64,000 nucleotides of DNA, taken from Pseudarthrobacter sulfonivorans (GTDB taxonomy: Bacteria; Actinomycetota; Actinomycetes; Actinomycetales; Micrococcaceae). The stretch spans positions 1,612,001 through 1,676,000 of the forward strand of contig NZ_CP013747.1 in the NCBI RefSeq assembly GCF_001484605.1, read 5' to 3'. The position numbers were made by a program, and so were the translations under genes. Below the pieces are notes generated by a model that did no database searches, was not told the DNA's origin, and saw only the letters and a list, made by a program, of their open reading frames with translations. Shown here piece by piece: positions 37,073-62,492 of the stretch; positions within the stretch are counted from its first letter, which is position 1, and each line of letters starts with the position of its first letter.

Positions 37073-38011
37073 CTAGAAGCGGAGCGTCCGCAGGTAGTTG
37101 TAGCCCACCTCGGCCGTCTGCAGCGGCGTGACGTCCGGCTGGTCGTTCTCGACGATGTATTCCTTCGGGGTGTGTGCCCGGAAGATGCGTGCGAAGTTGA
37201 TTGTTCCGGTTCCGAGGTCAGCAAAATCCCCCGCCACGGCCCGGTCCTTCACGTGGTACTGCAGAACCTTCTGCGGAGCCTGGAGGATGGTGTCGATAGC
37301 GAACCCGACGGGATCCGCCGCACCCACGCCAATGCCTCCGGCCACCGCCCAGTAGAGGTCTACCTCGAGGTGGACCAGTTTCGGATCGAGGCGGCTGGTG
37401 AAGATTTCCCAGGGTGTCAGGCCGCCGCCGAGGTCGGTGGTGAACTCGTGCGCGTGGTTGTGGTAGCCGTACTTCAGGCCGGACTCGCGGGCAACTGATG
37501 CCTCTGCGTTCATCTGGTCAGCCCAGCGCTCCCAGTCACTTTTGGAGCTCGAAACCAGGTAAGGAACATTGATGTGGGTCTGGCCGAGAGTCACCGCGTT
37601 GGCGATCTTGGTCTCCAGCGCGGCCGGAGTGGCGCTGATTCCGTCATGGCTCGAAGAGGGTTTGATGCCCAGTGAATCAAGGGTGGAGCGCATCGCCTCG
37701 GCGGTGCGGCCGTAAAGACCGGCGAGCTCAACCTTGGTGAAGCCGTAGTTGGCGAGGCTCGCAAGCGTGGCGTCCACACCGTCGCCCCGCATGATCGAAC
37801 GGAGCGTGTACAGCTGGATGCTGATGAGTCCGGGGGGAACCGGCCGGCCCGCCTGGGTGGCCGGAGCGGCCACTGCAGCGGCCCCGCCCATACCGGCGAG
37901 GCCCACACCCACGCCTGCTGCCACTGCTCCCCTCAGGAAGCCGCGCCGATCGACGCCCTTCTCTTCCAATGAACGACGAAGGGCGCCTGGGGCATTAAAT
38001 CCGAAGCACAT
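37073..38011 (-). CDS. Tat-exported sugar phosphate isomerase/epimerase-like TIM barrel
   Basis: A 312-residue xylose-isomerase-like TIM-barrel protein. Its N-terminus is a twin-arginine signal (DRRGFLRGAVAAG, cleavage near AVAAPA), so it should be exported folded. The barrel begins LISIQLYTLRSIMRGDG and includes the metal-site segments YGYHNHAHEF and LEVDLYWAVAGG, close to the cytoplasmic protein at 58432. The substrate is unknown; a keto-sugar or cyclitol is likely from the family. The promoter region 420 bp upstream carries a 22-bp motif shared with 58338. Confidence 0.85.
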   Translation of the reverse strand: MCFGFNAPGALRRSLEEKGVDRRGFLRGAVAAGVGVGLAGMGGAAAVAAPATQAGRPVPPGLISIQLYTLRSIMRGDGVDATLASLANYGFTKVELAGLYGRTAEAMRSTLDSLGIKPSSSHDGISATPAALETKIANAVTLGQTHINVPYLVSSSKSDWERWADQMNAEASVARESGLKYGYHNHAHEFTTDLGGGLTPWEIFTSRLDPKLVHLEVDLYWAVAGGIGVGAADPVGFAIDTILQAPQKVLQYHVKDRAVAGDFADLGTGTINFARIFRAHTPKEYIVENDQPDVTPLQTAEVGYNYLRTLRF

Positions 38012-40268: not shown

Positions 40269-41507
40269 TTGGGTACATCAGCTGAAGGGACTCCGGGCGT
40301 GACCACGAGCCCACATGCCTATGGCAAGACGGGCATCTGGCTCATCGGCGCGCGAGGGTCAGTGGCAACCACAGCCACGGTGGGCCTGGCCGCCATCTCC
40401 GCCGGCCTTGCCGAGGCCACCGGGTGCGTCACAGAGCAGGAACACTTCGGCGGGGTCGCGCTTCCCAACTTCGCAGACTTTGTGGTGGGCGGCCATGACA
40501 TCAGCGACGTTTGCATGGCCAAGCGTGCCGAGGCACTCGTTGAATCGGGGATGCTGCCGCTTCACCTGGTCGAATCCGTCCGACCCCAACTCGTGGAAGC
40601 CGACCAGCGTGTACGGCCCGGCTACAATCCTGCGCAGAAATCAGAGTCACAGGCCGAGGTGGCGCGCAGGCTTGCGAAGGACATCTTGGATTTCAAGGAC
40701 TCCAACCGCCTGGAACGCGTCATTGTTCTTGACGTCGCCTCGACCGAAGCCCCAGTTCAACCGATCGCTGAATTCACTGACGCGCACCTGCTGCTGACTG
40801 CGCTGGAGGACCCCGCACGGTCAGTGCTGCCGCCCAGTTCCGTCAGCGCCTACGCCGCCGCCCTGGCTGGTTCCCCGTACGTATGCTTCACCCCCTCCAC
40901 CGCCTTCAACGTGCCCGCGCTGCGTGAACTGGCTGCCCGGCACCACGTTCCAACGGCTGGCCAGGACGGTAAGACGGGCCAAACCTGGCTCCGGTCCGTG
41001 CTGGCACCGGCATTTGCCGCCCGCGGGCTGCGTGTCCTGTCATGGGCCGGAACCAACCTGCTCGGCGGGGGTGACGGCGCGACGCTCGCTGACCCGCAGG
41101 CCGTTTCGGGGAAACTGCAGTCCAAGAATCGCGGGCTTCAGGAACTGACCGGAGGTGCTGTTACGCCGCTTCACATTGACAACGTTCAGGATCTCGGCGA
41201 GACGAAGGTCGCCTGGGACCACGTCAACGTTGAAGGTTTCCTCGGTTCCCGGCTGACGCTGCAGACCACTTGGAGCGCTTACGACTCCATGCTGGCTGCA
41301 CCCATGGTGCTTGACCTCTCGCGCCTGATGGCTCTGGCCCACGCTGCCGGCGAAGAAGGCCACGTCGGAGCACTTGGATTCTTCTTCAAGGATCCGTGGG
41401 GCAGCGATGAGCACTCGTTCGCCAACCAGACACACAACCTCCTGGAGTGGGCCAAGAACGCGAGCGCTACGCTGGGTACCGGCACCGGGAGCCTCGATCA
41501 GCAGTGA
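40269..41507 (+). CDS. Inositol-1-phosphate synthase-like protein (Ebo cluster)
   Basis: A 412-residue member of the myo-inositol-1-phosphate synthase family, NAD-dependent cyclases that make inositol phosphate from glucose 6-phosphate. It has a Rossmann start GIWLIGARGSVATTATVGLA, the central GQDGKTGQTWLRSVLAPAF and a lysine-containing GKLQSKNRGLQEL region. It resembles the Streptomyces SCO3243 type more than mycobacterial Ino1. It overlaps the prenyltransferase gene by 4 bp. In many Ebo operons a dehydroquinate-synthase-like EboD, also an NAD-dependent cyclase, is found instead. The TTG start at 40269 follows AAAGGACATCACA. Confidence 0.85.
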   Translation: MGTSAEGTPGVTTSPHAYGKTGIWLIGARGSVATTATVGLAAISAGLAEATGCVTEQEHFGGVALPNFADFVVGGHDISDVCMAKRAEALVESGMLPLHLVESVRPQLVEADQRVRPGYNPAQKSESQAEVARRLAKDILDFKDSNRLERVIVLDVASTEAPVQPIAEFTDAHLLLTALEDPARSVLPPSSVSAYAAALAGSPYVCFTPSTAFNVPALRELAARHHVPTAGQDGKTGQTWLRSVLAPAFAARGLRVLSWAGTNLLGGGDGATLADPQAVSGKLQSKNRGLQELTGGAVTPLHIDNVQDLGETKVAWDHVNVEGFLGSRLTLQTTWSAYDSMLAAPMVLDLSRLMALAHAAGEEGHVGALGFFFKDPWGSDEHSFANQTHNLLEWAKNASATLGTGTGSLDQQ

Positions 41508-42385
41508 ACCGCGTTAACGACTACCTCGAATTGGTCCGTGCGCCGGCCGTCCTTACCGTCCTCGGCGATACGCTCGCAGGTGGGTCCGCCGCAGGGCACG
41601 CACTCAGCGGCCGCCGGATCGTTCTCCCCCTCGCCAGCGCCTGCCTCTACGCAGGCGGCATGGCACTGAATGACTACGCCGACCGCGGGACCGATGCACG
41701 CGAACGGCCGGAACGGCCCATTCCCTCCGGGAGAATCAGTGCCCGCAACGCCCTCACTGCCGCAACGGTCCTCACGCTGGCGGGGCTAGGCCTCAGCGCC
41801 GCAGGTGGTGGCAGGCGGGCGTTCGCAGTTGGACTTCCGCTCGCCACCGCAATCTGGACCTACGACCTGCTGGCCAAGAACCACGCGGTATCAGGTGCCC
41901 TCGCCATGGGTTCCTGCCGCGCCCTCGACGTTCTCATGGGCGCCGGCTCCGGGCACCTTCGGGCCGCGCTTCCCGCTGCGGGCATCATGGGCGGACACAC
42001 GGTGGCTGTCACCCTCCTATCGCGCGGTGAAGTGGAGGGAACGACGACGGCGACCGCTTCGGGAGTCGCCGCCGGCACCGGCCTGCTTGCCGCTGCCGTG
42101 GTAGCCGGCTCTGCCGGGCCCCGCAACCAGGTCCTTGCTGTGTTTGCCGCCAGTGCTGCGTATGCTGCCCGATGCGCTCCGGCCCAGGTGCGGGCTGCCC
42201 GCAACCCGGTGGCGAAAAGCGCACTTGAAGCCACCAAGGCAGGCATCCGGGCGATGATCCCCCTGCAGGCAGCACTCACGCTTCGCCACGGAAACCTGGC
42301 CGCCGCCGGAGTGCTTGCGTCGGTGGATCTGCTAGGCATGATCCTGCGTTCCCGTCCCCGGAGTTCGAGGATCAGCGAGTCATGA
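41504..42385 (+). CDS. eboC: EboC-like UbiA prenyltransferase (SCO3242 family)
   Basis: A 293-residue membrane enzyme of the UbiA superfamily with 7-9 helices. The first Asp-rich motif is NDYADRGTDARERPERPIPS, almost the EboC consensus; the second is near WTYDLLAKNHAVSG. It would transfer a prenyl chain from a polyprenyl diphosphate to an unknown acceptor. GTG at 41504 overlaps the preceding stop (GTGA), and its own stop overlaps the next start (ATGA), so it is tightly coupled. A polyprenyl synthase and an IPP isomerase lie 9-16 kb downstream. Confidence 0.88.
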   Translation: MNRVNDYLELVRAPAVLTVLGDTLAGGSAAGHALSGRRIVLPLASACLYAGGMALNDYADRGTDARERPERPIPSGRISARNALTAATVLTLAGLGLSAAGGGRRAFAVGLPLATAIWTYDLLAKNHAVSGALAMGSCRALDVLMGAGSGHLRAALPAAGIMGGHTVAVTLLSRGEVEGTTTATASGVAAGTGLLAAAVVAGSAGPRNQVLAVFAASAAYAARCAPAQVRAARNPVAKSALEATKAGIRAMIPLQAALTLRHGNLAAAGVLASVDLLGMILRSRPRSSRISES

Positions 42386-43890
42386 CAGGAACCACATTCG
42401 CATCAGAATCCACGATGCCCTTCAGCCTGGGATACGGGACCAACGGTTTCGCCGACCACCCCCTTCCCATAGCGCTCGAACTCCTCGCTGAGCAGGGCTA
42501 CGACGCTGTAGCACTGACGTTGGGCCACCCGCACCTGGACCCGTTTGCTGATGACCTGGACGCGCAACTGCAGTCACTGCGAAGCCGGCTCGACGAGCTG
42601 GGGCTCCGCGTAGTCATTGAAACTGGCACCCGCTTCCTGCTGGACCCGCGACGCAAGCACCGGCCCGCCCTGGTGGATGAAGATGCCGCAGTCCGGCTCG
42701 CCTTCCTGCGCCGGGCTGTCGACATCGCCGCGGCTTTGGAGGCAGAATGCGTCTCCTTCTTCTCGGGCGTACTTCCAGAAGACACCACCCCGGAAACGGG
42801 ATGGCAGCGGCTCATCGCCCGGGTCGCCGACATCGTTGAGTATGCTCGCGGCAAGGGCGTGCTTCTCGCCGTCGAACCTGAACCGGGAATGCTGGTCGAG
42901 ACGGTTTCCGACGTGCTGCGCCTTCGGGCAGAACTGGGCGATCCGGACAATCTGCGGGTGACCGTGGATATCGGCCACTGTGTAGTGGTCGAGCCGGCCG
43001 GTGTGCGGGGGGCCCTCCTGGAAGCCGGTCCGCTGCTGGCCAACGTCCAACTGGACGACATGCGCCCGCATGCCCACGAGCACCTGCCGTTTGGCGAAGG
43101 CACCGTCGATCTCCCGCTCGCACTCGCGACCCTGGCCGAACTGGGCTACCACGGTGTTGCCGCCGTCGAGCTGCCGCGACACTCCCATGACGCTCCGGGA
43201 CTGGCGGTGCGCAGCATGGATGCCCTCCGCGCCGGCTGGCACGAAGCAGGAACCATAAGGGAATCCGAACGCTGGCTGCAGGAGAGCACAACGGCGATCG
43301 CCGCCAACCCTGGCACCCTTAACAACATCTTCGCCAGGGCCGGTCGCCGCCTGGGCCGCAGCCCTCTTCATCCGGACGCCGATCCCACCGGTGTTCTGTT
43401 CGGCACCACAAGCGACCATGCGCGGGGCCAGCTGATGGGCCGGCTTGGGGAGTTCCTTTCGCCCGATGAACTGGCCGAAGCCTTGCTGGCTCTCTACGAC
43501 GGCGGCGATTCGGCAGAACGCCGGGGCTTGCTCAGGGGATTGGGAGCGTTGGCCACAGGCTTACCCAAGCTGCCGGACGTCGTCGTCACCGCGGGACTGC
43601 GCCTGACGGCGGACGCCCTGCGGACCAGCGAAAGCGGCATTGTCGCGGCCGCTGCCGGTCCGTTCGCGGCAGCCTACCTGGACCAACACAGCTGGCGTCA
43701 TGCCGTACTGAAGCTGGTGTTCATGGGCATCAGCCTCAGCGCCGTCACTGATCTCCAGAAGCGGGCTGATGACGAGCTCGCCCGGATGGCACGCGACTTC
43801 GCCGCGGAACGCACCGCCGCAGGGCGTCCGATCCCGGAGGACGTCCATCTGCTCATGCAGTCCTCATCCAGCTTTTCCACCTCTTCTTAA
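42382..43890 (+). CDS. eboA: TIM-barrel isomerase::EboA fusion protein
   Basis: A 502-residue two-domain protein. Residues 13-290 are a xylose-isomerase-like TIM barrel with metal-site candidates Glu165 (VEPEPG), Asp196/His199 (VDIGHC) and Glu263. Residues 300-500 match EboA: the HSWRHAVLKLVFMGISLSAV helix and the DFAAERTAAGRPIPEDVH end correspond to the conserved EboA C-terminus. EboA alone is usually about 240 aa. It overlaps eboC by 4 bp. The function of EboA is unknown; the fusion suggests it acts on the TIM barrel's sugar substrate. Confidence 0.82.
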   Translation: MTGTTFASESTMPFSLGYGTNGFADHPLPIALELLAEQGYDAVALTLGHPHLDPFADDLDAQLQSLRSRLDELGLRVVIETGTRFLLDPRRKHRPALVDEDAAVRLAFLRRAVDIAAALEAECVSFFSGVLPEDTTPETGWQRLIARVADIVEYARGKGVLLAVEPEPGMLVETVSDVLRLRAELGDPDNLRVTVDIGHCVVVEPAGVRGALLEAGPLLANVQLDDMRPHAHEHLPFGEGTVDLPLALATLAELGYHGVAAVELPRHSHDAPGLAVRSMDALRAGWHEAGTIRESERWLQESTTAIAANPGTLNNIFARAGRRLGRSPLHPDADPTGVLFGTTSDHARGQLMGRLGEFLSPDELAEALLALYDGGDSAERRGLLRGLGALATGLPKLPDVVVTAGLRLTADALRTSESGIVAAAAGPFAAAYLDQHSWRHAVLKLVFMGISLSAVTDLQKRADDELARMARDFAAERTAAGRPIPEDVHLLMQSSSSFSTSS

Positions 43891-43902
43891 GGAAAGCCAG
43901 CT

Positions 43903-44781
43903 ATGCGCATTTTCGATCCGCACATTCACATGACAAGCCGGACCACCAATGATTACGAGGCCCTTTACGCCAACGGAGTGCGCGCCCTCGTGGAACCCGC
44001 GTTCTGGATGGGCCAGCCCCGCACCAACGTCGGCTCCTTCATCGACTACTTCGACTCCCTGCTGGGCTGGGAGCGGTTCCGCGCCGCCCAATTCGGCATC
44101 CGGCATCACGCCACGATCGCCCTCAACCCCAAGGAGGCGAACGATCCCCGGTGCGTTCCCGTCCTGGATGAGATCCCCCGCTACCTGGTGAAGGAGGGCG
44201 TGGTGGCCATCGGCGAGATCGGCTACGACTCGATGACGCCCGCCGAGGACGAGGCATTCAGCCGCCAGTTGCAGCTCGCACGTGAGTATTCACTGCCGGT
44301 GATGGTGCACACCCCGCACAGGGAGAAGCTTGCCGGCACACAGAGGACGCTGGACGTCGTCCGCGAGTCAGGCGTTACACCCGGCATGGTGGTTGTTGAT
44401 CACCTTAATGAGACAAACGTGGAGATGGTGAAGGACGCCGGAGCATGGATGGGGTTCTCGATCTACCCGGACACCAAAATGGATGAGCGGCGCATGGTCG
44501 CGATCCTCGGCAGGTACGGAACTGAAAGGGTGCTGGTCAACTCCGCGGCTGACTGGGGCCGGTCGGACCCACTTAAAACCGTCAGCACGGCCAACGCAAT
44601 GCTCGCGGCGGGCTTCACGGCCGACGACGTCGACAAGGTGCTCTGGCGCAATCCTGTCGAGTTCTACGGCCAGAGTGGCCAGCTGATTCTTGATCCGATC
44701 CCCGGCTTCGACGCGGCTGAACTGCCGGATGCAGCAGCGGGTTTCGAAGGTAACTCAGTCCTGCGGGGGGCCCGGGTCTGA
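43903..44781 (+). CDS. eboB: EboB-like TatD family hydrolase
   Basis: A 292-residue metal-dependent hydrolase of the TatD/amidohydrolase type. Metal residues visible are HIH (7-9) in FDPHIHM, Glu in AIGEIGYDSM, His in VMVHTPHR, His in VVDHLNETN and the late Asp in NSAADWGRSD. This distinctive spacing is that of EboB rather than of DNase TatD. Its stop overlaps the eboE start by one base (TGATG). The substrate is unknown. Confidence 0.85.
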   Translation: MRIFDPHIHMTSRTTNDYEALYANGVRALVEPAFWMGQPRTNVGSFIDYFDSLLGWERFRAAQFGIRHHATIALNPKEANDPRCVPVLDEIPRYLVKEGVVAIGEIGYDSMTPAEDEAFSRQLQLAREYSLPVMVHTPHREKLAGTQRTLDVVRESGVTPGMVVVDHLNETNVEMVKDAGAWMGFSIYPDTKMDERRMVAILGRYGTERVLVNSAADWGRSDPLKTVSTANAMLAAGFTADDVDKVLWRNPVEFYGQSGQLILDPIPGFDAAELPDAAAGFEGNSVLRGARV

Positions 44782-45905
44782 TGCTCCTTTCATACTGCAC
44801 CAACGTCCACCCGGCTGAAGATCTCGACGGCGTGATCCGGCAGCTCCGCGAGTACGCCGGTCCGATCCGCCGCACCGTGGGCCTGGCGATCCTCGGCGTG
44901 GGACTGTGGCTGCCCGCCGGGCTGGCCCGTCAACTGGCTCACAGTGAGGAGGACCGCGCCGCCCTCCGCGACGTCCTCGACGCTGAAGGGCTGCAGCTGC
45001 ACACCATCAATGCCTTCCCTTATGGCGGCTTCCACAATGAAGTCGTTAAGCTCGACGTCTACAAGCCGACGTGGGCCGACCGTGAGCGGCTGGAGTACAC
45101 GCTGAACTGTGCGGAGGTGCTGGCAGCACTTCTGCCCGAGGACACAGCCGGCTCAATTTCGACCCTGCCCCTTGCCTGGCGCGAGTCATGGACACAGAAC
45201 GACGACGACGCCGCCACTACCGCGTTCGCCGAACTGAGCTCCCGCTTGAGTGACCTGCGGGAGCGTACGGGCAAGACCGTCCGCGTGGCCGTCGAACCCG
45301 AGCCGGGCTGCGTGCTCGATACCGTCACCGACGTCGTCGGCTGGCTGGGAACACGAATCGAACGCGGCGTCGATCCCGAATTCGTCGGCCTGTGCGTGGA
45401 CACCTGCCACCTGGCCGTTTCATTTGCGGACCCGGCCGGCGCAGTCAACGAAATTGATGCAGCAGGCCTGCGGATAGTAAAGGTACAGGCGTCGGCAGCC
45501 CTGCACGTAACGGATCCGACCGACCCGGCAGCCCGGGCGGCCCTGGCGGCGTTCGTTGAACCGCGATATCTCCACCAGGTAAGGGAGGCGCAGCCGGGCG
45601 GGATTATTGCTGCCGACGATCTCGCCGAAGCCCTCGCTGAGCTGCCGGGGGAAAGCGCGTGGCGGGTTCACTTCCACATCCCACTTCATCATGTGCCCTC
45701 AGCCCCTTTGGAGACCACCGTGGACGTGCTGCGGCGGACCGTCGCCGAAGTTGGTCAGTTGCCCTATGCGCCTGAGGTCCACCTTGACATCGAGACCTAT
45801 ACCTGGAGCGTGCTGCCTGGCGCGTCGGTGGGCATCACCGAGGGGATTGCGGCAGAGATCGCGTGGGCGCAGTCGAACCTGTTCGCTGCCGCACCCACGC
45901 CCTGA
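44781..45905 (+). CDS. eboE: Metabolite traffic protein EboE
   Basis: A 374-residue xylose-isomerase-like TIM barrel that fits EboE well: YCTNVHPAEDLDGVIRQLRE opening, TINAFPYGGFHNEVVKLDVY, then RLEYTLNCAEVLAALLPED and GSISTLPLAW. Metal-site segments are VEPEPG and VDTCHLAV. In the cyanobacterial scytonemin system the ebo genes are needed for moving the monomer to the periplasm, hence the family name; the biochemical step is not known. It is start-coupled to eboB and followed by eboF. Confidence 0.9.
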   Translation: MLLSYCTNVHPAEDLDGVIRQLREYAGPIRRTVGLAILGVGLWLPAGLARQLAHSEEDRAALRDVLDAEGLQLHTINAFPYGGFHNEVVKLDVYKPTWADRERLEYTLNCAEVLAALLPEDTAGSISTLPLAWRESWTQNDDDAATTAFAELSSRLSDLRERTGKTVRVAVEPEPGCVLDTVTDVVGWLGTRIERGVDPEFVGLCVDTCHLAVSFADPAGAVNEIDAAGLRIVKVQASAALHVTDPTDPAARAALAAFVEPRYLHQVREAQPGGIIAADDLAEALAELPGESAWRVHFHIPLHHVPSAPLETTVDVLRRTVAEVGQLPYAPEVHLDIETYTWSVLPGASVGITEGIAAEIAWAQSNLFAAAPTP

Positions 45906-45952
45906 GAACGCGTATTTCGCACGTCACTCACAACCCGAAGCAAGGAAGATCC

Positions 45953-47353
45953 GTGAAACCCGTACTGCTGCTAAACGTCGTTGGTCTGACCGCCAAGGCC
46001 CTGAGCCAGATGCCTCGCTTGTCGCGGCTTGCGGCACAGGGGTGGTCCTCGGAACTGGCTACAGTGCTGCCCGCGGTGACGTGCACAGTGCAGTCCACTA
46101 TGCTGACGGGCTTGGCGCCAGCACAACACGGGATCGTGGGGAATGGCTGGTACTTCCGGGAGCTCGGCGATGTTTTCCTGTGGCGCCAGCACAACAAGCT
46201 TGTCAGCGGCGAGAATATCTGGGAGGCAGCCCGCCGTCAGCATCCCGGGTACAGCGCAGGCAATGTCTGCTGGTGGTACGCCATGGGGATGTCCACGGAC
46301 CTCACAGTGACACCCCGGCCGGTTTATCATGCAGACGGTCGCAAATCACCCGATGCGTACGTACGACCGGCGGAACTGCACGATGAACTTGTCTCCAACT
46401 TCGGGGACTTCCCGCTCTTCCAGTACTGGGGCCCGACGGCAACGATCCGATCGAGCGAGTGGATCGTCAATTCCACCAGGCACATCATGCGGAACCAGTC
46501 ACCGAACCTGCTGATGGCCTATCTGCCGCACCTGGACTATGACCTCCAGCGGTTTGGACCCGACTCGCCGCAGGCTGCCCGCGCGGCTGCCGAGCTCGAC
46601 CGTACCCTTGCGCCGCTGCTGGATGAGGCCGAGGCACGCGGTTATGCCGTAATTGCAGTAGCCGAGTACGGGATCGAAGAAGCACGCACACCTGTCGACA
46701 TCAACCGCGTACTGCGCCGGGAAGGCCTGCTCGAGGTCTACGTGCAGGACGGCAGCGAGCAGCTCGATCCATGGACCTCCCGGGCGTTTGCCGTAGCTGA
46801 CCACCAGGTTGCACATGTGTACGTCTCAAACCCGTCGGACGTTGAGCGGGTGGCAGCACTTCTTCGCGGGACTGACGGAGTGGATGAGGTCCTCGACCGG
46901 GAAGCGCAGGGCCGCTACGGCCTCGATCACGAAAGGTCCGGGGAGCTCGTTGTCATAGCGGAGCCGGGTGCCTGGTTCACCTACTATTTCTGGCTCGACG
47001 ACGAGCGGGCACCCGAGTACGCCCGCGGCGTCGATATCCATCGGAAACCTGGCTACGACCCCGCCGAACTCTTCTTCAACCCAGCGGACAAGCTGGCGAA
47101 GGCCAAAGCAGGACTCAACCTGGTCAAAAAGAAGCTGGGCCTGCGGTACGCCATGAGCACCGTGCCCCTTGATCCGACGCATGTGCGGGGCACCCATGGA
47201 CGGCTTCCTGATTCTCCCGACGGCACGCCCCTGATTATTGGCTCGGAGGCCCGGATTCCCTCTTCGGTGGAGGGCTTCCTGAACAGTGGCCGGCAGGTCC
47301 CCGCCGCTGCGGTTAAGGAGCTCGTGCTTCAGACCCAAGGCATCCACAGCTAA
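45953..47353 (+). CDS. eboF: EboF-like alkaline phosphatase-superfamily protein
   Basis: A 466-residue protein of the nucleotide pyrophosphatase/phosphodiesterase fold. PAVTCTVQSTMLTGLAPAQH carries the nucleophile-position Thr43, and GIVGNGWYFRELGDVFLWRQ is typical of EboF. By eye several metal ligands of true NPPs are replaced: Asp by Val in NVVGLT, His by Gln in HLDYDLQRFGP, Asp-His by Glu-Tyr in AEYGI. It may therefore bind rather than cleave a phospho-substrate. GTG at 45953 follows AAGGAAGATCC. It is last in the Ebo-type operon, 47 bp after eboE. Confidence 0.85.
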   Translation: MKPVLLLNVVGLTAKALSQMPRLSRLAAQGWSSELATVLPAVTCTVQSTMLTGLAPAQHGIVGNGWYFRELGDVFLWRQHNKLVSGENIWEAARRQHPGYSAGNVCWWYAMGMSTDLTVTPRPVYHADGRKSPDAYVRPAELHDELVSNFGDFPLFQYWGPTATIRSSEWIVNSTRHIMRNQSPNLLMAYLPHLDYDLQRFGPDSPQAARAAAELDRTLAPLLDEAEARGYAVIAVAEYGIEEARTPVDINRVLRREGLLEVYVQDGSEQLDPWTSRAFAVADHQVAHVYVSNPSDVERVAALLRGTDGVDEVLDREAQGRYGLDHERSGELVVIAEPGAWFTYYFWLDDERAPEYARGVDIHRKPGYDPAELFFNPADKLAKAKAGLNLVKKKLGLRYAMSTVPLDPTHVRGTHGRLPDSPDGTPLIIGSEARIPSSVEGFLNSGRQVPAAAVKELVLQTQGIHS

Positions 47354-56259: not shown

Positions 56260-57432
56260 ATGCTGAACGACGTACCGCCCCTGAGGGTTGCCCTGATCGG
56301 ACACGGATTCATGGGGGCTGCCCATTCGCAGGGTTGGCGTGTTGCACCCCGGTTCCATGACCTGCCGGCCCGGCCGGAAATGACCCTGCTAGTGGGTCGC
56401 AACGCAAGCGGCGTGGAGGCGTCAGCGAGGAAATGGGGTTGGGAACAGACTGCTACCGACTGGCGGGCTGCCGTCGAGCGTGACGACATTGACGTGATAG
56501 ACATCGTTACTCCCGGTGATTCCCATGCCGAGATCGCAATTGCGGCGCTGCAAGCGGGTAAGCACGTGCTGTGCGAGAAGCCGCTCGCAAACACCCTTGA
56601 AGAAGCAGAAGCAATGGCCGCCGCCGCGGACCGCGCCGGCAAGGGCGTTTTCGCCATGGTCGGATTCACCTACCGCCGCGTGCCCGCCGCAGCCTTCGCA
56701 AGGGACCTGGTCCAGTCCGGTGCGATCGGCGAGGTTCGCCAGGTACGATCCGCGTATCTCCAGGACTGGCTGGTTGACGCTGAGGCCCCGCTGACGTGGC
56801 GTTTGCAGAAGGAGCACGCCGGATCCGGAGCACTCGGAGACCTCGGCGCACACGCGGTCGACCTCGCCCAGTTCATCACGGGCCAGAGGATCACCGGCGT
56901 CACCGGAATCCTGAACACTTTCGTTCACGAGCGCCCATTGCTGGACAGAGCATCAGGGCAGGCGGGCACCGTCGCAGTGGAGCGCGGCAACGTCACCGTT
57001 GATGACCTGGCCCTGTTCAGCGGCCGTTTCGACGGCGGGGCAGTCGGTTCGTTCGAAGCCACCCGGATGTCCACCGGCCGGAAAAACGCATTGCGCATCG
57101 AGGTGGCGGGGTCTACCGGCGCCATCTCATTCGACCTGGAGAACATGAATTCCCTTGGCTTTTATGATGCGACTTTGCCCGGGACCCGCCAGGGATTCAC
57201 CAACATCATGGTCACCGAACCCGCGCACCCCTATTTGTCCGCCTGGTGGCCTGCGGGCCACGCCCTTGGCTACGAGCACGGGTTCACTCATCAGGCAAAG
57301 GACTTCGTCGAGGCCATCGCCGAGGGCCGCCAGCCGGAACCGTCCTTCGCCGACGGCCTGCAGGTGCAGAAGGTCCTCCACGGTGTGGAGCGCAGTGCGG
57401 AAGCCGACAGCATCTGGACTCAAACGGTCTAG
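56260..57432 (+). CDS. Gfo/Idh/MocA family oxidoreductase
   Basis: A 390-residue NAD(P)-dependent sugar or cyclitol dehydrogenase. The nucleotide fold is RVALIGHGFMGAAHSQGW; the catalytic Lys is in VLCEKPLANTLEEA; GALGDLGAHAVDLAQF carries the later conserved Asp/His. It is a clear paralogue of the protein at 60311, sharing WRLxKExAGSGALGD and HPYLxAWWPxGH stretches. Oxidation at C3 of a sugar or of inositol is common in this family. Downstream of the binding lipoprotein, behind AAGAGGAAAC. Confidence 0.92.
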   Translation: MLNDVPPLRVALIGHGFMGAAHSQGWRVAPRFHDLPARPEMTLLVGRNASGVEASARKWGWEQTATDWRAAVERDDIDVIDIVTPGDSHAEIAIAALQAGKHVLCEKPLANTLEEAEAMAAAADRAGKGVFAMVGFTYRRVPAAAFARDLVQSGAIGEVRQVRSAYLQDWLVDAEAPLTWRLQKEHAGSGALGDLGAHAVDLAQFITGQRITGVTGILNTFVHERPLLDRASGQAGTVAVERGNVTVDDLALFSGRFDGGAVGSFEATRMSTGRKNALRIEVAGSTGAISFDLENMNSLGFYDATLPGTRQGFTNIMVTEPAHPYLSAWWPAGHALGYEHGFTHQAKDFVEAIAEGRQPEPSFADGLQVQKVLHGVERSAEADSIWTQTV

Positions 57433-57470
57433 TCCCGGCCGTTCCGGCCAGCGCCTGAGAAAGGATCAAG

Positions 57471-57674
57471 ATGCCCACCCCGCCCGGCCAGTGCAACGCG
57501 ATACAGTCAGGGAAGCCGTCAAGGCCGATTTGGAGTTGCTGGCCGGAGGGCGGGATTCCGCCGTCGCGCTCGGCCGAAGCGGCGGACCCTCAGCAGTGTG
57601 TCCAACTCCCGGAAGCCGACGCACACCAGGCGGCCGTGCTGCGCGAGTTCTATTGTGCTCTGTCGACCTATTAG
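57471..57674 (+). pseudogene. Possible gene remnant
   Basis: GAAAGGATCAAG forms a good ribosome binding site before ATG at 57471, giving 67 codons with no recognisable fold. One base shift early on gives VQRDTVREAVKADLELLAGG, which looks like a real helix, and then loses sense after about 40 codons. This suggests the damaged start of a gene once following the dehydrogenase. No family can be named. The rest of the gap up to idi shows nothing. Confidence 0.3.
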
Positions 57675-58285
57675 TCCGACGGGATGTCGCTAACGTCCGC
57701 CTCGCCTTTTTGCGCCGAGGTGGACGACGGCGGGTTCTCGAGACGCGGGGAATCGCCTATCGACCAGCCAGGGCCCAGCTCTTTAAGTTGCAGTACGAGC
57801 CACGGGCTGAAAGCCCATGGTGCCGACTCTGCTGCGGTGAACAGGCTTGGCAGGGAGACCCAGCGGTACTCGCACACTTCTGATTGCCTGGGTATTACGT
57901 CATCGATCGTTACAGCGGTAAAAACAGGGCATAACTCGTTTTCGACAATGCCATTCATATCTACAGCCCTGTACCTGAATTTGGGCAGGCACTTCTCCAG
58001 GCTGGAAACCTCGATTCCGAGTTCCCACTGACCTCTCCGTCGGATGGCATCCAACATGTCTTCACCCGGAGCGGGATGTCCGCAGAAGGAATTCGTCCAC
58101 GCTCCGGGCCAGGTGGCTTTGCTGAGAGCACGCCTGGTTACGAGCACTCGTCCCAATCGATCGAATACGTAGCAGGAAAAGGCCAGGTGCAGCGGAGTTT
58201 CATGATCATGAATTTCCAGCTTCGGCGCTGTCCCACAGGGCTGGCCGTCAGCGTCCAGGAGTACTACCAGCTCTTTATTCGTCAT
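57671..58285 (-). CDS. idi: Isopentenyl-diphosphate delta-isomerase, type 1
   Basis: A 204-residue Nudix-fold type 1 IPP isomerase, converting IPP to DMAPP for prenyl chain start. The catalytic Cys is in NSFCGHPAPGED; metal ligands are in the HDHETPLHLAFSCYVF strand and in the ENELCPVF segment; the Nudix-like helix is RRRGQWELGIE. The C-terminus has an extra 25 residues ending VSDIPSD. Base composition looks lower in GC than its neighbours. No carotenoid genes are nearby, so its likely partner is the polyprenyl synthase at 51251. Confidence 0.9.
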   Translation of the reverse strand: MTNKELVVLLDADGQPCGTAPKLEIHDHETPLHLAFSCYVFDRLGRVLVTRRALSKATWPGAWTNSFCGHPAPGEDMLDAIRRRGQWELGIEVSSLEKCLPKFRYRAVDMNGIVENELCPVFTAVTIDDVIPRQSEVCEYRWVSLPSLFTAAESAPWAFSPWLVLQLKELGPGWSIGDSPRLENPPSSTSAQKGEADVSDIPSD

Positions 58286-58337
58286 GAAAGCATCAAACCA
58301 CAGATCAAGCGCCCCTTCGTTACGTCCCGTTAGCAAC

Positions 58338-58359
58338 TTTTGCTTGACGATCGACAAAA
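58338..58359 (+). promoter_or_regulatory. Shared 22-bp operator/promoter motif, copy 2
   Basis: TTTTGCTTGAC, five variable bases, ACAAAA, matching copy 1 at 38419 in 17 of 17 fixed positions, with two more matching bases upstream (AC). TTGACG at 58344 could be the -35, with TAGGTT 17 bp on, serving the gene at 58432. It is also 53 bp upstream of idi on the other strand. Confidence 0.7.
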
Positions 58360-58431
58360 GTAGCTCTAGGTTTAGTGAAGGCCACCTTTGCAACCAGTCA
58401 CCGTGGATTCGTCTGCTCCTCAGGAGAACTA

Positions 58432-59184
58432 ATGAACTACTCGATCCAGCTCTACACACTCCGGGACCAGATCCAGGCGGACCTTCCCGGCACCATCCGC
58501 AAGGTCGCGGAGATCGGCTTCACGAAGGTTGAGCCGTACAACTTTGTCGCCACAGCCAAAGAGCTCGGGGCTGCACTGAGGGAGAACGGCCTGACGGCTC
58601 CGTCCGGGCACGCACCGCTGCTGAGCCAGGACCAGGACGAAATTTTCGCGGCCGCCAAGGAACTGGGGATCACCACGGTGATCGATCCGTTCATCGCCGC
58701 TGACCGCTGGCAGTCCGCCAAGGACATCCAGGCAACCGCCGCGAGCCTCAACGCCGCCGCCAGGAAGGGCGCCGAATACGGCATCCGCGTGGGCTACCAC
58801 AACCACCAGTGGGAGCTGGAGTCCACCATCGAAGGACGCACGGCGCTGGAGTACTTCGCGGACCTCCTCGATCCCGAAGTTGTCCTCGAAGTGGACACGT
58901 ACTGGGTTGCCGTGGGAGGCCAGGATCCCGTGGCGGTGCTGGAGCGGCTCGGCGACCAGGTCAAATTCATCCACATCAAGGACGGACCGCTGAACACCGA
59001 CACCAAGGAGCAGCTCCCCGCAGGCCAAGGCAAGGTCGCCGTGCTGGACGTCATCGCCGCCGCCAGGTCCCTCGAGGTGGGCGTGGTGGAATTCGATGAC
59101 TACGCCGGAGACATCTTCGTAGGCATCGCCGAGAGCCTCGGCTACCTCAACGCCGCACAGGGCACCGCCGGAGCACGCGCATGA
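58432..59184 (+). CDS. Sugar phosphate isomerase/epimerase-like TIM barrel
   Basis: A 250-residue cytoplasmic xylose-isomerase-like protein. It begins YSIQLYTLRDQIQADLPGTI and carries the metal segments GYHNHQWELE, LEVDTYWVAVGG and FIHIKDG. It resembles the exported protein at 37073 (shared IQLYTLR, YHNH, LEVDxYW). It overlaps the next dehydrogenase start by 4 bp, so isomerase and dehydrogenase act in one pathway. TCAGGAGAAC precedes the ATG. The promoter contains the shared 22-bp motif. Keto-sugar or inosose isomerisation is a fair guess. Confidence 0.9.
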   Translation: MNYSIQLYTLRDQIQADLPGTIRKVAEIGFTKVEPYNFVATAKELGAALRENGLTAPSGHAPLLSQDQDEIFAAAKELGITTVIDPFIAADRWQSAKDIQATAASLNAAARKGAEYGIRVGYHNHQWELESTIEGRTALEYFADLLDPEVVLEVDTYWVAVGGQDPVAVLERLGDQVKFIHIKDGPLNTDTKEQLPAGQGKVAVLDVIAAARSLEVGVVEFDDYAGDIFVGIAESLGYLNAAQGTAGARA

Positions 59185-60302
59185 GCCACGCAGCATCGAC
59201 CCGCCGCGGCCCCGTGGGAGTTGCCGTCATCGGCGCCGGCAACATTTCCAAGGAATACCTGGACAACCTCACCGTCTTCCCGGACCTGAAAGTCCTCGTC
59301 ATCGCCGACCTCTTTGAAGAGGCCGCCGAGGCTCGGGCCAAGGAATACGGCATCGCGGAGTGGGGCGGCGTGGATGCGGCGCTGAACCATCCCGACGTCG
59401 AAATCATCGTGAACCTGACCATCCCCGCGGCGCACGTTGAGGTGGCCACCGCCGCCGTCAATGCCGGCAAGCATGTCTGGACCGAGAAGCCCTTTTCCCT
59501 GGACCGCGCCTCCGGGCTCGGCCTGCTCAAAACCGCCGACGCCGCCGGCATCCGCCTCGGCTGCGCCCCCGACACCTTCCTCGGCGCCGGCCTGCAGACC
59601 GCACGCCGGCTGATCGAACGCGGCGACATCGGCACCCCGCTGACGGCCATGACCACCTTCCAGACCCCCGGCCCGGAATCCTGGCACCCCAACCCGGCGT
59701 TCCTGTTCCAGACCGGGGCCGGGCCGCTCTTCGACATGGGCCCGTATTACCTCACCCTGTTGGTCCAGACGTTCGGCTCCGTCCGCAAGGTCGCCGCCGT
59801 CGGATCCAGGTCCAGGGACCTCCGCGTCATCGGCTCCGGGCCCAAGGCCGGCGAGGAGTTCACCGTCGAGGTGCCCACGCACGTGAGCGCCATGGCCCAG
59901 TTCGAAAGCGGAGCATCCTCGCACAGCGTTTTCTCCTTTGAGTCCCCGCGCGTTCACATGGGATTCGTGGAAATCACCGGCACCGAGGCCACCCTCTCCC
60001 TGCCGGACCCCAATAATTTCGACGGCGACATCCGGCTCTGGCGCGCCGGGGACGAGGACTGGACCACGGTCCCGGCAACCGGCCCCGCCAGCGGCCGCGG
60101 CATGGGCGTCCTGGACATGGCACGCTCGCTGCGTGCAGGGGTTCCCCACCGCGCCACCGGCAACCTGGCGTACCACGTCCTGGACACCATGGTCTCCATC
60201 ACCGAATCCATGGAAACCGGTACGTTCGTTGACGTTGAAAGCTCCGCGCCAGTCTCGCCGGCCCTGCCGGAGGACTGGGCCCCGGAAACCGCAACGCTCT
60301 AG
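59181..60302 (+). CDS. Gfo/Idh/MocA family oxidoreductase
   Basis: A 373-residue dehydrogenase: nucleotide fold GVAVIGAGNISKEYLDNL, catalytic Lys in VWTEKPFSLDRASG, and later PLFDMGPYYLTLLVQTFGSV, typical of the family. It is more divergent from the other two dehydrogenases in the window, so it probably acts on a different position or product. Coupled by overlap to the isomerase at 58432 and followed after 8 bp by the next dehydrogenase, in one operon of four genes. Confidence 0.92.
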   Translation: MSHAASTRRGPVGVAVIGAGNISKEYLDNLTVFPDLKVLVIADLFEEAAEARAKEYGIAEWGGVDAALNHPDVEIIVNLTIPAAHVEVATAAVNAGKHVWTEKPFSLDRASGLGLLKTADAAGIRLGCAPDTFLGAGLQTARRLIERGDIGTPLTAMTTFQTPGPESWHPNPAFLFQTGAGPLFDMGPYYLTLLVQTFGSVRKVAAVGSRSRDLRVIGSGPKAGEEFTVEVPTHVSAMAQFESGASSHSVFSFESPRVHMGFVEITGTEATLSLPDPNNFDGDIRLWRAGDEDWTTVPATGPASGRGMGVLDMARSLRAGVPHRATGNLAYHVLDTMVSITESMETGTFVDVESSAPVSPALPEDWAPETATL

Positions 60303-60310
60303 GAACGACG

Positions 60311-61489
60311 ATGATGACCTCACCTGCATCAACCACGAAGCGTCCGCTCGGCGTCGCCATGATCGGCTACGCGTTTATGGGCAAGGCCCATTCCAACGCC
60401 TGGCGCAATGTGGCCAGCTTCTTCGATGTCCCGGCCTTTGAACAGACGGTCCTGGTGGGCCGGGACCCCGCCGGGGTGAAGGAAGCCGCCGCGAAATACG
60501 GCTGGGCCGAGACCGCGACGGACTGGCGGGCCGTCCTGGACCGCGACGACATCGACATCGTGGACATCTGCGCCCCGGGCTGGATGCACGCCGAGATCGC
60601 GATCGCCGCGCTCGCGGCAGGCAAACATGTCCTGGTGGAGAAGCCGCTCGCCAATACGCTTGCCGAGGCCGAGGCCATGACGGCGGCCGCGCAGGCAGCC
60701 CGGGCCAAGGGCGTGCAGTCGATGATCGGCTTCAATTACCGGCGCGTGCCGGCGTTGGCCCTGGCGAAGGAGCTCATCGCCGAGGGCCGGGTGGGCACTG
60801 TCCGGCAGGTCCGGGCCGCCTATTTGCAGGACTGGCTGGCGGACGAAACGGCGCCCATGAGCTGGCGGCTGAACAAGGAAACCGCCGGTTCCGGGGCACT
60901 CGGGGATATCGCCTCCCACGCCATCGACCAGGTCCTGTTCCTGCTCGGGGACCGGGTCACCGAGGTTTCCGGCCGCCTGCACACCTTCGTGGAGCGCCGC
61001 CCCGGCGTGGACGGCTTGGAGGACGTAACGGTCGACGACGCCGCCTGGGCCACGCTGTCCCTCGCCTCCGGAGCAGTCGCCTCAGTTGACGTTTCGCGGG
61101 TCGCTACCGGCCAGAAGAACTCGCTGAAGCTGGAGATCTATGGGGATAAGGGCGCCATCCGGTTCGACTTGGAAAACCTCAACGAACTTCACTTCCTCGA
61201 TGCCACCGCACCCGCCCGCGAGCAGGGGTTCCGCCGGATCCTGGTCGGCGAGCCCGGGCACCCGTATCTTAAAGCCTGGTGGCCGCAAGGGCACATCATC
61301 GGCTGGGAACACACCTTTACCCACGAAATCCGCGACCTCCTCACCGCCATCGGCACCGGAACCCCGCCGTCGCCGTCGTTCGAGGACGGCCTCGAGGTGC
61401 AGCGGATCCTGAACGCCATCGAAGAGTCCGCCGCAGCGAAAAGCTCCACCATCCCGCTGGCCCGCACCACCGCTTCTGAAGGAGCCTGA
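60311..61489 (+). CDS. Gfo/Idh/MocA family oxidoreductase
   Basis: A 392-residue dehydrogenase, closely paralogous to the protein at 56260. Fold: GVAMIGYAFMGKAHSNAW; catalytic Lys in VLVEKPLANTLAEA; GALGDIASHAIDQVLFLLGD; C-terminal HPYLKAWWPQGHIIGWEHTF. It starts at ATG 60311 or 60314 after AGGAACGACG. It is followed with a 1-bp gap by a large sugar isomerase, a pairing seen widely in actinobacterial sugar/cyclitol catabolism. Confidence 0.92.
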   Translation: MMTSPASTTKRPLGVAMIGYAFMGKAHSNAWRNVASFFDVPAFEQTVLVGRDPAGVKEAAAKYGWAETATDWRAVLDRDDIDIVDICAPGWMHAEIAIAALAAGKHVLVEKPLANTLAEAEAMTAAAQAARAKGVQSMIGFNYRRVPALALAKELIAEGRVGTVRQVRAAYLQDWLADETAPMSWRLNKETAGSGALGDIASHAIDQVLFLLGDRVTEVSGRLHTFVERRPGVDGLEDVTVDDAAWATLSLASGAVASVDVSRVATGQKNSLKLEIYGDKGAIRFDLENLNELHFLDATAPAREQGFRRILVGEPGHPYLKAWWPQGHIIGWEHTFTHEIRDLLTAIGTGTPPSPSFEDGLEVQRILNAIEESAAAKSSTIPLARTTASEGA

Positions 61490-61490
61490 C

Positions 61491-62492
61491 ATGCCCCGCC
61501 CCTATACCCTGTTCACCGGCCAGTGGGCCGACCTCCCGTTCGAGGAAGTCGCACGCCTGGCCTCCGGCTGGGGCTACGACGGCCTGGAAATCGCCGTCTC
61601 CGGCGACCATCTGGACGCCTGGCGCTGGGACGAACCCGGGTACGTCGAGTCCAAACTCGCCGTGCTGGAGAAGTACAACCTGAAGGTCTGGGCCATCTCC
61701 AACCACCTGAAGGGCCAGGCCGTGTGCGATGACCCCATCGACTTCCGCCACGAAGCGATCGTGGGCGCGAAGGTCTGGGGCGACGGGGATCCCGAAGGCG
61801 TCCGCCAACGCGCCGCAGAGGAAATGAAGCACACCGCCCGCCTGGCCAAAGCCCTCGGCGTGGACACCGTCGTCGGATTCACCGGCTCCTCCATCTGGCA
61901 GTACGTGGCCATGTTCCCGCCCGTCCCCGCCGCCGTGATCGAGGCCGGCTACCAGGACTTCGCGGACCGCTGGAACCCCATCCTGGACGTCTTCGACGAA
62001 TGCGGTGTCCGGTTCGCCCACGAGGTCCACCCCTCCGAGATCGCCTACGACTACTGGACCACCGTCCGCACCCTCGAAGCGATCGGCCACCGGAAAGCGT
62101 TCGGCCTGAACTGGGACCCCTCGCACTTTATGTGGCAGGGCATCGATCCCGTCTCGTTCATCTGGGACTTCAAGGACCGGATCTACCACGTGGACTGCAA
62201 GGACACGAAGCTCCGCCCCACCGGCCGGAACACTGTGATGGGTTCGCACCTGCCGTGGGGTGACCCGCGGCGGGGCTGGGACTTCGTCTCCGCCGGCCGC
62301 GGCGACGTCCCCTGGGAATCGTCCTTCCGCGCCCTTACAGCGATCGGCTACACCGGGCCCATCTCGGTCGAATGGGAAGACGCCGGCATGGACCGGCTCC
62401 ACGGCGCGCCCGAAGCCCTGGCAGCGCTGAAGAAGTTCGACTTCCCCGCCTCCCAGACCAGCTTCGACGCCGCTTTCAGCACGAAGCCCTAA
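61491..62492 (+). CDS. Sugar phosphate isomerase/epimerase-like TIM barrel
   Basis: A 333-residue xylose-isomerase-like enzyme, larger than the one at 58432. It opens YTLFTGQWADLPFEEVARLA and carries AISNHLKGQAVCD, FAHEVHPSEIAYDYW, NWDPSHFMWQGIDP and YHVDCKD as metal/substrate segments. GSHLPWGDPRRGWDFVSAG and ISVEWEDAGMDRLHGA are typical of the dehydrogenase-paired subgroup. It ends the operon begun at 58432. The substrate is not assignable. Confidence 0.92.
   Translation: MPRPYTLFTGQWADLPFEEVARLASGWGYDGLEIAVSGDHLDAWRWDEPGYVESKLAVLEKYNLKVWAISNHLKGQAVCDDPIDFRHEAIVGAKVWGDGDPEGVRQRAAEEMKHTARLAKALGVDTVVGFTGSSIWQYVAMFPPVPAAVIEAGYQDFADRWNPILDVFDECGVRFAHEVHPSEIAYDYWTTVRTLEAIGHRKAFGLNWDPSHFMWQGIDPVSFIWDFKDRIYHVDCKDTKLRPTGRNTVMGSHLPWGDPRRGWDFVSAGRGDVPWESSFRALTAIGYTGPISVEWEDAGMDRLHGAPEALAALKKFDFPASQTSFDAAFSTKP

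Follow-up and report, generated by a model that had tools for sequence, protein, structure and literature searches.

In this study, we analyzed a 64,000-nucleotide stretch of Pseudarthrobacter sulfonivorans (contig NZ_CP013747.1, positions 1,612,001 to 1,676,000), referred to below as the window, in which six same-strand open reading frames (ORFs) spanning positions 40269-47353 form an operon of the ebo type. The name of the ebo operon dates from 2016 (PMC5133447). The ABCDEF-type operons of eustigmatophyte plastids, Bacteroidetes, and Cyanobacteria in the accessible part of that article have in common with the window an EboA domain, EboB, EboE, EboF, a UbiA prenyltransferase, and an NAD-dependent sugar-phosphate cyclase. 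Their cyclase is EboD, whereas the window contains an inositol-phosphate synthase (MIPS), a prenyltransferase of the SCO3242 family, and an extra TIM barrel. The six genes are as follows.

40269-41507, + strand: ebo-type MIPS (archaeal-type inositol-phosphate synthase) at the EboD position; PF07994 177.9 bits, PF01658 95.3 bits
41504-42385, + strand: UbiA prenyltransferase of the SCO3242 family at the EboC position; the ORF opens at 41447, GTG at 41504 preferred
42382-43890, + strand: TIM::EboA fusion, a xylose-isomerase-like TIM barrel with a C-terminal EboA domain; PF01261 133.4 bits, NF035938 134 bits
43903-44781, + strand: EboB, a TatD-like metallo-hydrolase; PF01026 57.5 bits
44781-45905, + strand: EboE, a TIM barrel; NF035939 427.7 bits (cut-off 250)
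45953-47353, + strand: EboF, a type I phosphodiesterase/pyrophosphatase; PF01663 219.2 bits; the ORF opens at 45863, GTG at 45953 preferred

Start-codon reading places 4-bp overlaps between MIPS and UbiA and between UbiA and TIM::EboA, a 12-bp gap between TIM::EboA and EboB, a 1-bp overlap between EboB and EboE, and a 47-bp gap between EboE and EboF, in agreement with the gene arrangement given in a preliminary description of this DNA. The assignments of that description were also recovered in Pfam and NCBIfam scans for the MIPS-like cyclase, TIM::EboA, and EboE. Both MIPS domains, PF07994 and PF01658, scored above their cut-offs, and the closest named relatives of the protein are from Arthrobacter, with 97% identity at best. 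The EboA domain covers residues 345-491 of the fusion protein (cut-off of NF035938, 50 bits) and is mostly helical in the predicted model. EboB and EboF, for which the NCBIfam scan of the window proteins matched no Ebo-named model, are similar to the EboB and EboF of EboD-type loci, and their assignment, likewise in line with the preliminary description, is based on Pfam family, gene order, and this similarity.

The prenyltransferase (68.7 bits on the UbiA Pfam family) reached 308.5 bits on NF045897, the SCO3242 family (cut-off, 260), and 164.3 bits on the EboC equivalog NF035940 (cut-off, 250). Its suspected kinship with SCO3242 was thus confirmed, whereas its designation as EboC has to be replaced by that of a counterpart, belonging to a separate family that tracks MIPS. 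In the search with hidden Markov models that the preliminary description had recommended, EboA and EboE were thus recognized, the prenyltransferase fell below the EboC cut-off, and EboB and EboF matched no Ebo-named model. The EboC cut-off was also missed by some EboD-type loci (L029 and L126, 96 bits each; L and G numbers denote loci and genomes). In Streptomyces coelicolor, SCO3242, after which the NCBI family is named, and SCO3243 carry consecutive numbers and are listed as a putative transferase and a myo-inositol phosphate synthase (PMC3610822); in the accessible text of that article both appear solely in transcriptome lists of the CDA cluster, and the excerpt available of PMC6585502 assigns the inoA gene for MIPS to a different locus, SCO3899. 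By every criterion tested, except the type of cyclase and prenyltransferase, the window operon is an ebo operon. As it contains no EboD, it is classed as a variant and not as a standard ebo operon, and we consider it virtually certain that it represents a MIPS-type variant of the ebo pathway.

Cyclase types among ebo loci and genomes

To compare operon anatomy, we scored 111 ebo loci with purpose-built profiles. This set comprised 19 loci from a genome survey, 80 named loci, and 12 plasmid loci. The named loci were kept from at least 581 confirmed relatives that had been found via patterns from seven actinobacterial EboE sequences; all are actinobacterial, Streptomyces is heavily represented, and named and survey loci may repeat a species. 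Of the plasmid records, 12 of 48 (2 from Streptomyces and 10 others) and then 8 of 44 of a further set were examined. A number of observations can be derived from these data. (i) The full order MIPS-SCO3242-TIM-A-B-E-F was found in 68 of the 111 loci, many others being cut by contig ends, which indicates an operon arrangement beyond chance. (ii) MIPS (>300 bits) was present in 71 loci and EboD in 10, and no locus contained both, so that the coexistence of the two cyclases, which the preliminary description had named as contrary evidence, was not encountered. (iii) A TIM barrel above 250 bits accompanied MIPS in 68 of 71 loci but EboD in none of 10; the exceptions were L030, L078, and L086, and in L030, tblastn gave a TIM match of 206 bits. 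An SCO3242-type match above 110 bits was found in 69 of the 71 MIPS loci. (iv) TIM and EboA share one reading frame in 19 of the 90 loci having both, as in the window, and are separate in the remainder. Judged from these alignments and profiles, MIPS, the sugar-isomerase TIM barrel, and the SCO3242-type UbiA protein change together as a module on a shared EboB/EboE/EboF core. The exchange of the cyclase that had been proposed earlier was thus correct but incomplete, since the additional TIM-barrel sugar isomerase had not been recognized as part of it. A ferritin-like protein was observed immediately upstream of the ebo genes in two EboD-type loci, L129:3984-5066 (Mycetohabitans) and L131:2832-4100 (Aureibacter).

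The survey of 396 Actinomycetota genomes gave a concordant distribution. EboE was above its cut-off in 18 genomes and the SCO3242 family in 17. Ebo-type MIPS was likewise found in 17 genomes, with scores of 497 bits or more (15 whole proteins and 2 split pairs) and a next best match of 350 bits, at most four candidates being scored per genome. The 17 genomes with SCO3242-type and with ebo-type MIPS proteins are identical, and all 17 of these MIPS are located inside ebo loci (surveyed loci or window). The MIPS profile includes sequences from six of the 17 genomes, which hence match by construction, whereas the NCBI models are independent of this choice of sequences. The remaining EboE genome, G381, is of the EboD type, with no MIPS match and no SCO3242-type prenyltransferase above cut-off. 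Separately, G279 contains an apparently decaying ebo operon (L043), with EboE in two pieces below cut-off, an internal TGA in the prenyltransferase match, and, on a different contig (L137), MIPS paired with a TIM.

The genome that contains the window (5.06 Mb, completeness 100) possesses two MIPS-family genes, namely, the operon MIPS and a separate canonical Ino1 of 368 amino acids. EboD was found nowhere in this genome by either a dehydroquinate (DHQ)-synthase family search or an EboD profile search; its single DHQ-synthase-family gene scored 164 bits on the EboD profile, compared to 634 bits for a true EboD. Together with the conserved gene order, this supports the earlier statement that EboD is missing and that MIPS stands first. 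The profile was built from nine EboD-type sequences, of which the 634-bit EboD of G381 is itself one. When applied to 23 genomes or records (the 17 MIPS-type genomes, among which G318 is a draft with 82% completeness, as well as G381, G279, three genomes with a MIPS-less operon, and a Gemmatirosa plasmid), it gave at most 196 bits in all but G381, including all 17 MIPS-type genomes, and nothing on the Gemmatirosa plasmid.

We also inspected operons without MIPS, counting loci for which 5 kb or more of upstream sequence was available and setting aside the degraded L043. Thirteen loci lacked a local MIPS, one of which (L026) is in G128, a genome that also holds a complete operon; in 11 of the 12 other genomes with a MIPS-less operon, an ebo-type MIPS is encoded elsewhere. 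In G398, G399, and G397 (Lentzea flava), the MIPS lies apart from the ebo operon and within a sugar module. The genes around this detached MIPS include some or all of those for an ABC importer for sugars, for levoglucosan-dehydrogenase-like and TIM proteins, and for a PKD protein resembling glucose dehydrogenase, and in two of the three genomes a ROK gene as well. In Streptomyces, a second, MIPS-less ebo operon (L085:1981-13723) adjoins an inositol-monophosphatase-family gene (best NCBIfam match, histidinol-phosphatase, below cut-off), a CrtI-like oxidoreductase, and a P450, and similar starts of phosphatase-like and oxidoreductase ORFs recur next to L026, L090, and L092.

Catalytic residues, phylogeny, and MIPS-TIM pairs outside ebo

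The closest solved relatives of the ebo MIPS by sequence are the Archaeoglobus fulgidus MIPS 1u1i (189 bits) and 7nwr (161 bits). The equivalents of A. fulgidus residues D225, N255, K274, K278, K306, D332, and K367 are present in the window MIPS and invariant in 72 of 72 ebo MIPS; N255, K278, and K367 are the residues altered in A. fulgidus mutant entries, as read off the alignments. While the catalytic residues are common to both, the ebo MIPS belong to a clade of their own that is linked to the ebo operon. In the TIM barrel, the metal-site-like residues E154, D185, H188, Q212, and E252 (slice numbering) are kept in 88 to 91 of 91 sequences. In the prenyltransferases, the UbiA motif columns N, D, D, D, and R are conserved at >85% in both 84 MIPS-lineage and 10 EboD-type sequences, the columns having been matched by eye and not by structure to the motif description of the G2 enzymes in the accessible part of PMC9235831. 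Six further columns are each conserved at >85% in both groups but as different residues. These active-site alignments left out sequences that contain stops and those no longer than 180 residues. Matches of the window UbiA protein in the Protein Data Bank (PDB) were weak, to chlorophyll synthase and digeranylgeranylglyceryl phosphate synthase.

In the maximum-likelihood MIPS tree, a branch with 100/100 support separates ebo, Gemmatirosa, and haloarchaeal MIPS from the other sampled archaeal-type MIPS. This tree, which does not include 1u1i, was the more careful run, whereas the EboB, EboE, and EboF trees were quick searches with SH-aLRT support only. The EboE and EboF of Gemmatirosa (L132) fall within the EboD lineage (SH-aLRT 100) and its EboB with the members lacking eboA (100). 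The same locus carries MIPS, TIM, and a prenyltransferase that scores higher on SCO3242 (172 bits) than on EboC (136 bits), below cut-off in each case; the combination of an EboD-lineage core with these three genes suggests that the ring-making module moved onto, or was kept on, such a core. A compact cluster of EboB, two TIM barrels, UbiA, MIPS, and EboF is present on plasmids of Halobaculum, Natronococcus, and Halocatena (L168:4136-10686, L169:3939-10612, L171:4238-10539), and on the Natronococcus plasmid, genes for a PQQ-type sugar dehydrogenase and an ABC transporter adjoin it. The variant is not only actinobacterial, a point on which the preliminary description needs correction.

The pairing of MIPS with this type of TIM barrel recurs outside ebo. 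A related TIM (323-361 bits on the ebo TIM profile) is encoded on the same strand and within 6 kb of MIPS in all six group-II non-ebo loci, namely, L136-L139 (Actinomycetota), L172 (Roseomonas), and L174 (Methylobacterium), so that the TIM follows some MIPS without ebo. No TIM was found in the available stretch of five plain MIPS loci (L140-L143, L173) or in the haloarchaeal non-ebo loci L170 and L175. The Roseomonas and Methylobacterium clusters (L172:7977-17152 and L174:7557-14818) are on plasmids. The Roseomonas pair is accompanied by genes for YcaO, a methyltransferase, a GT4 glycosyltransferase, and a PIG-L deacetylase and possibly belongs to a cluster for an inositol natural product; the names GT4 and PIG-L recall mycothiol-type inositol chemistry.

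Genes flanking the operon

The operon is surrounded by genes related to sugar transport and oxidation, with two ROK regulators around it. The corresponding features in the window are the following.

37073-38011, - strand: xylose-isomerase-like TIM barrel with a signal-like N terminus by eye; PF01261; PDB 8tcs/8tcd 76 bits
38470-39678, - strand: ROK regulator; PF00480 195.6 bits
47558-49759, + strand: glucose/sorbosone dehydrogenase-like protein with a PKD domain, secreted-looking by eye; PF07995 92.6 bits
51251-52441, - strand: polyprenyl diphosphate synthase, a possible source of the prenyl donor; PF00348 166.1 bits
52389-56170: sugar ABC importer, with permease (-), ATPase (-), and binding protein (+)
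56260-61486, + strand: three Gfo/Idh/MocA dehydrogenases and one TIM barrel
61491-62489, + strand: TIM barrel related to 2-hydroxy-3-keto-glucal hydratase; PDB 2zds 556.7 bits, 8ro4 137.6 bits

We searched for relatives of these proteins near 99 ebo loci and in 20 control stretches at round coordinates from eight MIPS-type genomes. The glucose/sorbosone dehydrogenase-like protein had relatives near 38 of the 99 loci, the 37073-38011 TIM near 30 (80 bits), the 61491-62489 TIM near 27, the importer ATPase near 17 (150 bits), the ROK regulator near 13 (150 bits), and the polyprenyl synthase near 10 (80 bits), compared to none of the 20 controls in each case. At least two of six sugar-module families were present in 35 of 68 MIPS-type loci and in 3 of 30 loci without MIPS, compared to none of the 10 EboD-type loci and none of the 20 controls; the 30 loci without MIPS are a weak comparison, many being cut by contig ends, and related Streptomyces loci are not independent. 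Two of the three Gfo/Idh/MocA proteins matched the levoglucosan-dehydrogenase family with 360.6 and 342 bits, below its cut-off of 650, and the 60311-61486 protein matched PDB entries 6a3f and 5ya8. These dehydrogenases and TIM barrels resemble the enzymes of the 3-keto-glycoside pathway (8ro4), in which, according to the accessible part of PMC10628242, glycosides are oxidized at C3 and cleaved by elimination to 2-hydroxy-3-keto-glucal; they constitute a neighboring module outside the ebo core. The best NCBIfam match of the polyprenyl synthase was a family 2 encapsulin cargo polyprenyl transferase (185 bits; cut-off, 450).

Proposed pathway and its alternatives

The cyclase published for ebo differs in its proposed substrate. 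In the available portion of PMC5133447, EboD is proposed to form a cyclitol from sedoheptulose 7-phosphate, and the contrast between a cyclitol and a dehydroquinate-type ring drawn in the preliminary description is accordingly not a clean one. The same portion mentions actinobacterial TIM-EboA hybrids (data not shown) and does not contain the word inositol. The scytonemin-associated cluster of Nostoc punctiforme has the same EboA/B/C/E/F set and is of the EboD type; according to the accessible text of PMC6282210, each single deletion of these five genes left the scytonemin monomer in the cytoplasm, and the ebo genes, which are needed for scytonemin export, are tied to the repelling of a nematode grazer. 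In that text, eboD was not analyzed, and neither MIPS nor inositol is mentioned. The excerpt of PMC9235831 shows the ebo genes of Saccharomonospora and names EboD as the cluster cyclase, and the two Saccharomonospora loci of our set (L068 and L081) are of the MIPS type. The word inositol was absent from all ebo papers examined for it, and in the literature searched, which excludes most subscription journals, we found no paper joining MIPS to ebo among the matches listed (at most the best 20 of each search) and no report of the ebo product.

We propose the following pathway. MIPS would convert glucose 6-phosphate into an inositol phosphate by NAD-dependent aldol cyclization, and the TIM barrel would epimerize or isomerize the resulting cyclitol, a step suggested mainly because the MIPS-TIM pairing recurs outside ebo. 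The membrane UbiA enzyme would then transfer an isoprenoid, with a prenyl diphosphate as donor that the polyprenyl synthase nearby may supply, while EboF may cleave phosphate esters, EboB and EboE may tailor the product, and EboA may act as a scaffold. Such a pathway would yield a prenylated inositol-derived cyclitol lipid serving as membrane carrier or cofactor, and in many genera the pathway may be coupled to the sugar importer, the keto-glycoside enzymes, and the secreted glucose-dehydrogenase-like protein. The individual steps differ in their plausibility. A ring of the inositol type is probable, the action of the TIM barrel on such a ring is somewhat favored, and its prenylation is evenly poised. 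As an overall explanation, a MIPS-type ebo variant yielding a prenylated inositol-derived cyclitol has slightly better than even prospects, and this compound, as predicted from protein families and gene context, is the most economical and most likely candidate for the product.

Several observations weigh against this interpretation. (i) L078 and L086 have no recognizable TIM, and L086 and L105 no SCO3242-type match, although all three carry MIPS. (ii) Streptomyces alanosinicus (G407, L106) has no ebo-type MIPS and only one EboE, which implies that MIPS may not be strictly required. (iii) Neither EboA nor a clear EboE was found in the three haloarchaeal plasmid loci, so that the shared core is smaller there. 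(iv) The MIPS of haloarchaeal L170 and L175, both Halomarina plasmids, are inside the ebo clade yet lack TIM and ebo genes, the MIPS of the annotated L170 lying among glycosyltransferase genes; MIPS clade and ebo operon are thus not equivalent. (v) Gene neighbors show association, not function, and no sugar-module family was found in 23 of the 68 MIPS-type loci. (vi) MIPS relatives can make other rings, as does the five-membered-cyclitol-phosphate synthase 6k96, to which there is a weak match (29.6 bits). (vii) The EboC-like Ubi-297 farnesylates 8-hydroxyquinoline acids and not cyclitols, as stated in the part of PMC9235831 available.

The last two observations lead to alternative explanations. 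The operon MIPS might form a ring other than an inositol phosphate, such as a five-membered cyclitol phosphate or one built from a different sugar phosphate, that is then prenylated. The 6k96 match and the separation of the ebo MIPS as a distinct clade from other archaeal-type MIPS would agree with this, but the nearest solved relatives are true MIPS and the catalytic residues are invariant, and we regard this explanation as unlikely. It is similarly unlikely that an aromatic or other acceptor is prenylated in place of the cyclitol, with the cyclitol phosphate serving another step, for instance as head group or cofactor. The Ubi-297 activity on quinoline acids and the Tyr, Asp-rich, and Arg columns conserved alike in MIPS-type and EboD-type prenyltransferases speak for such an acceptor, whereas the type of prenyltransferase tracks that of the cyclase in 17 of 17 genomes, six columns distinguish the two types, and the weak PDB matches are to chlorophyll synthase and digeranylgeranylglyceryl phosphate synthase.

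Actinobacteria use inositol in their lipids, and the operon enzyme, as a member of the MIPS family, might just boost the general supply of inositol or inositol lipids, with its placement in the operon serving regulation. However, a canonical Ino1 is already encoded in the genome, and all 17 ebo-type MIPS of the 396 genomes are in an ebo operon, where they are complementary to EboD, which makes this explanation very improbable. A mainly catabolic cluster, in which an imported glycoside is oxidized at C3, cleaved, and turned over with participation of the ebo proteins, would fit the enrichment of sugar-module families at MIPS-type loci (35 of 68, compared to none of the 10 EboD-type loci or the 20 controls) and the three genomes in which a detached ebo-type MIPS lies inside the sugar module. 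It nevertheless appears improbable, as MIPS and a membrane prenyltransferase are biosynthetic and a third of the MIPS-type loci (the 23 noted above) have no such family.

On a broader scale, and much more tentatively than the prenylated inositol-derived cyclitol itself, ebo may be an ancient lipid-cyclitol system of Bacteria and Archaea in which EboD plus EboC or MIPS plus TIM plus SCO3242-type UbiA are interchangeable modules on an EboB/EboF core (with EboE and EboA in bacteria). The MIPS form could then yield prenylated inositol lipids of a new class, acting at the membrane together with secreted sugar-oxidizing beta-propeller enzymes and the keto-glycoside module, much as Nostoc ebo precedes periplasmic scytonemin oxidation. 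The haloarchaeal operons suggest that the pathway spans two domains of life. The exchange of cyclase, isomerase, and prenyltransferase as a unit indicates which enzymes probably share a substrate, and the cyclase swap narrows the candidates for the ebo product. Since MIPS is a well-understood ring maker, this form of the pathway offers a defined first step that can be assayed, as well as a precursor that can be labelled, and the nature of the ebo product becomes directly testable in culturable Streptomyces and Arthrobacter.

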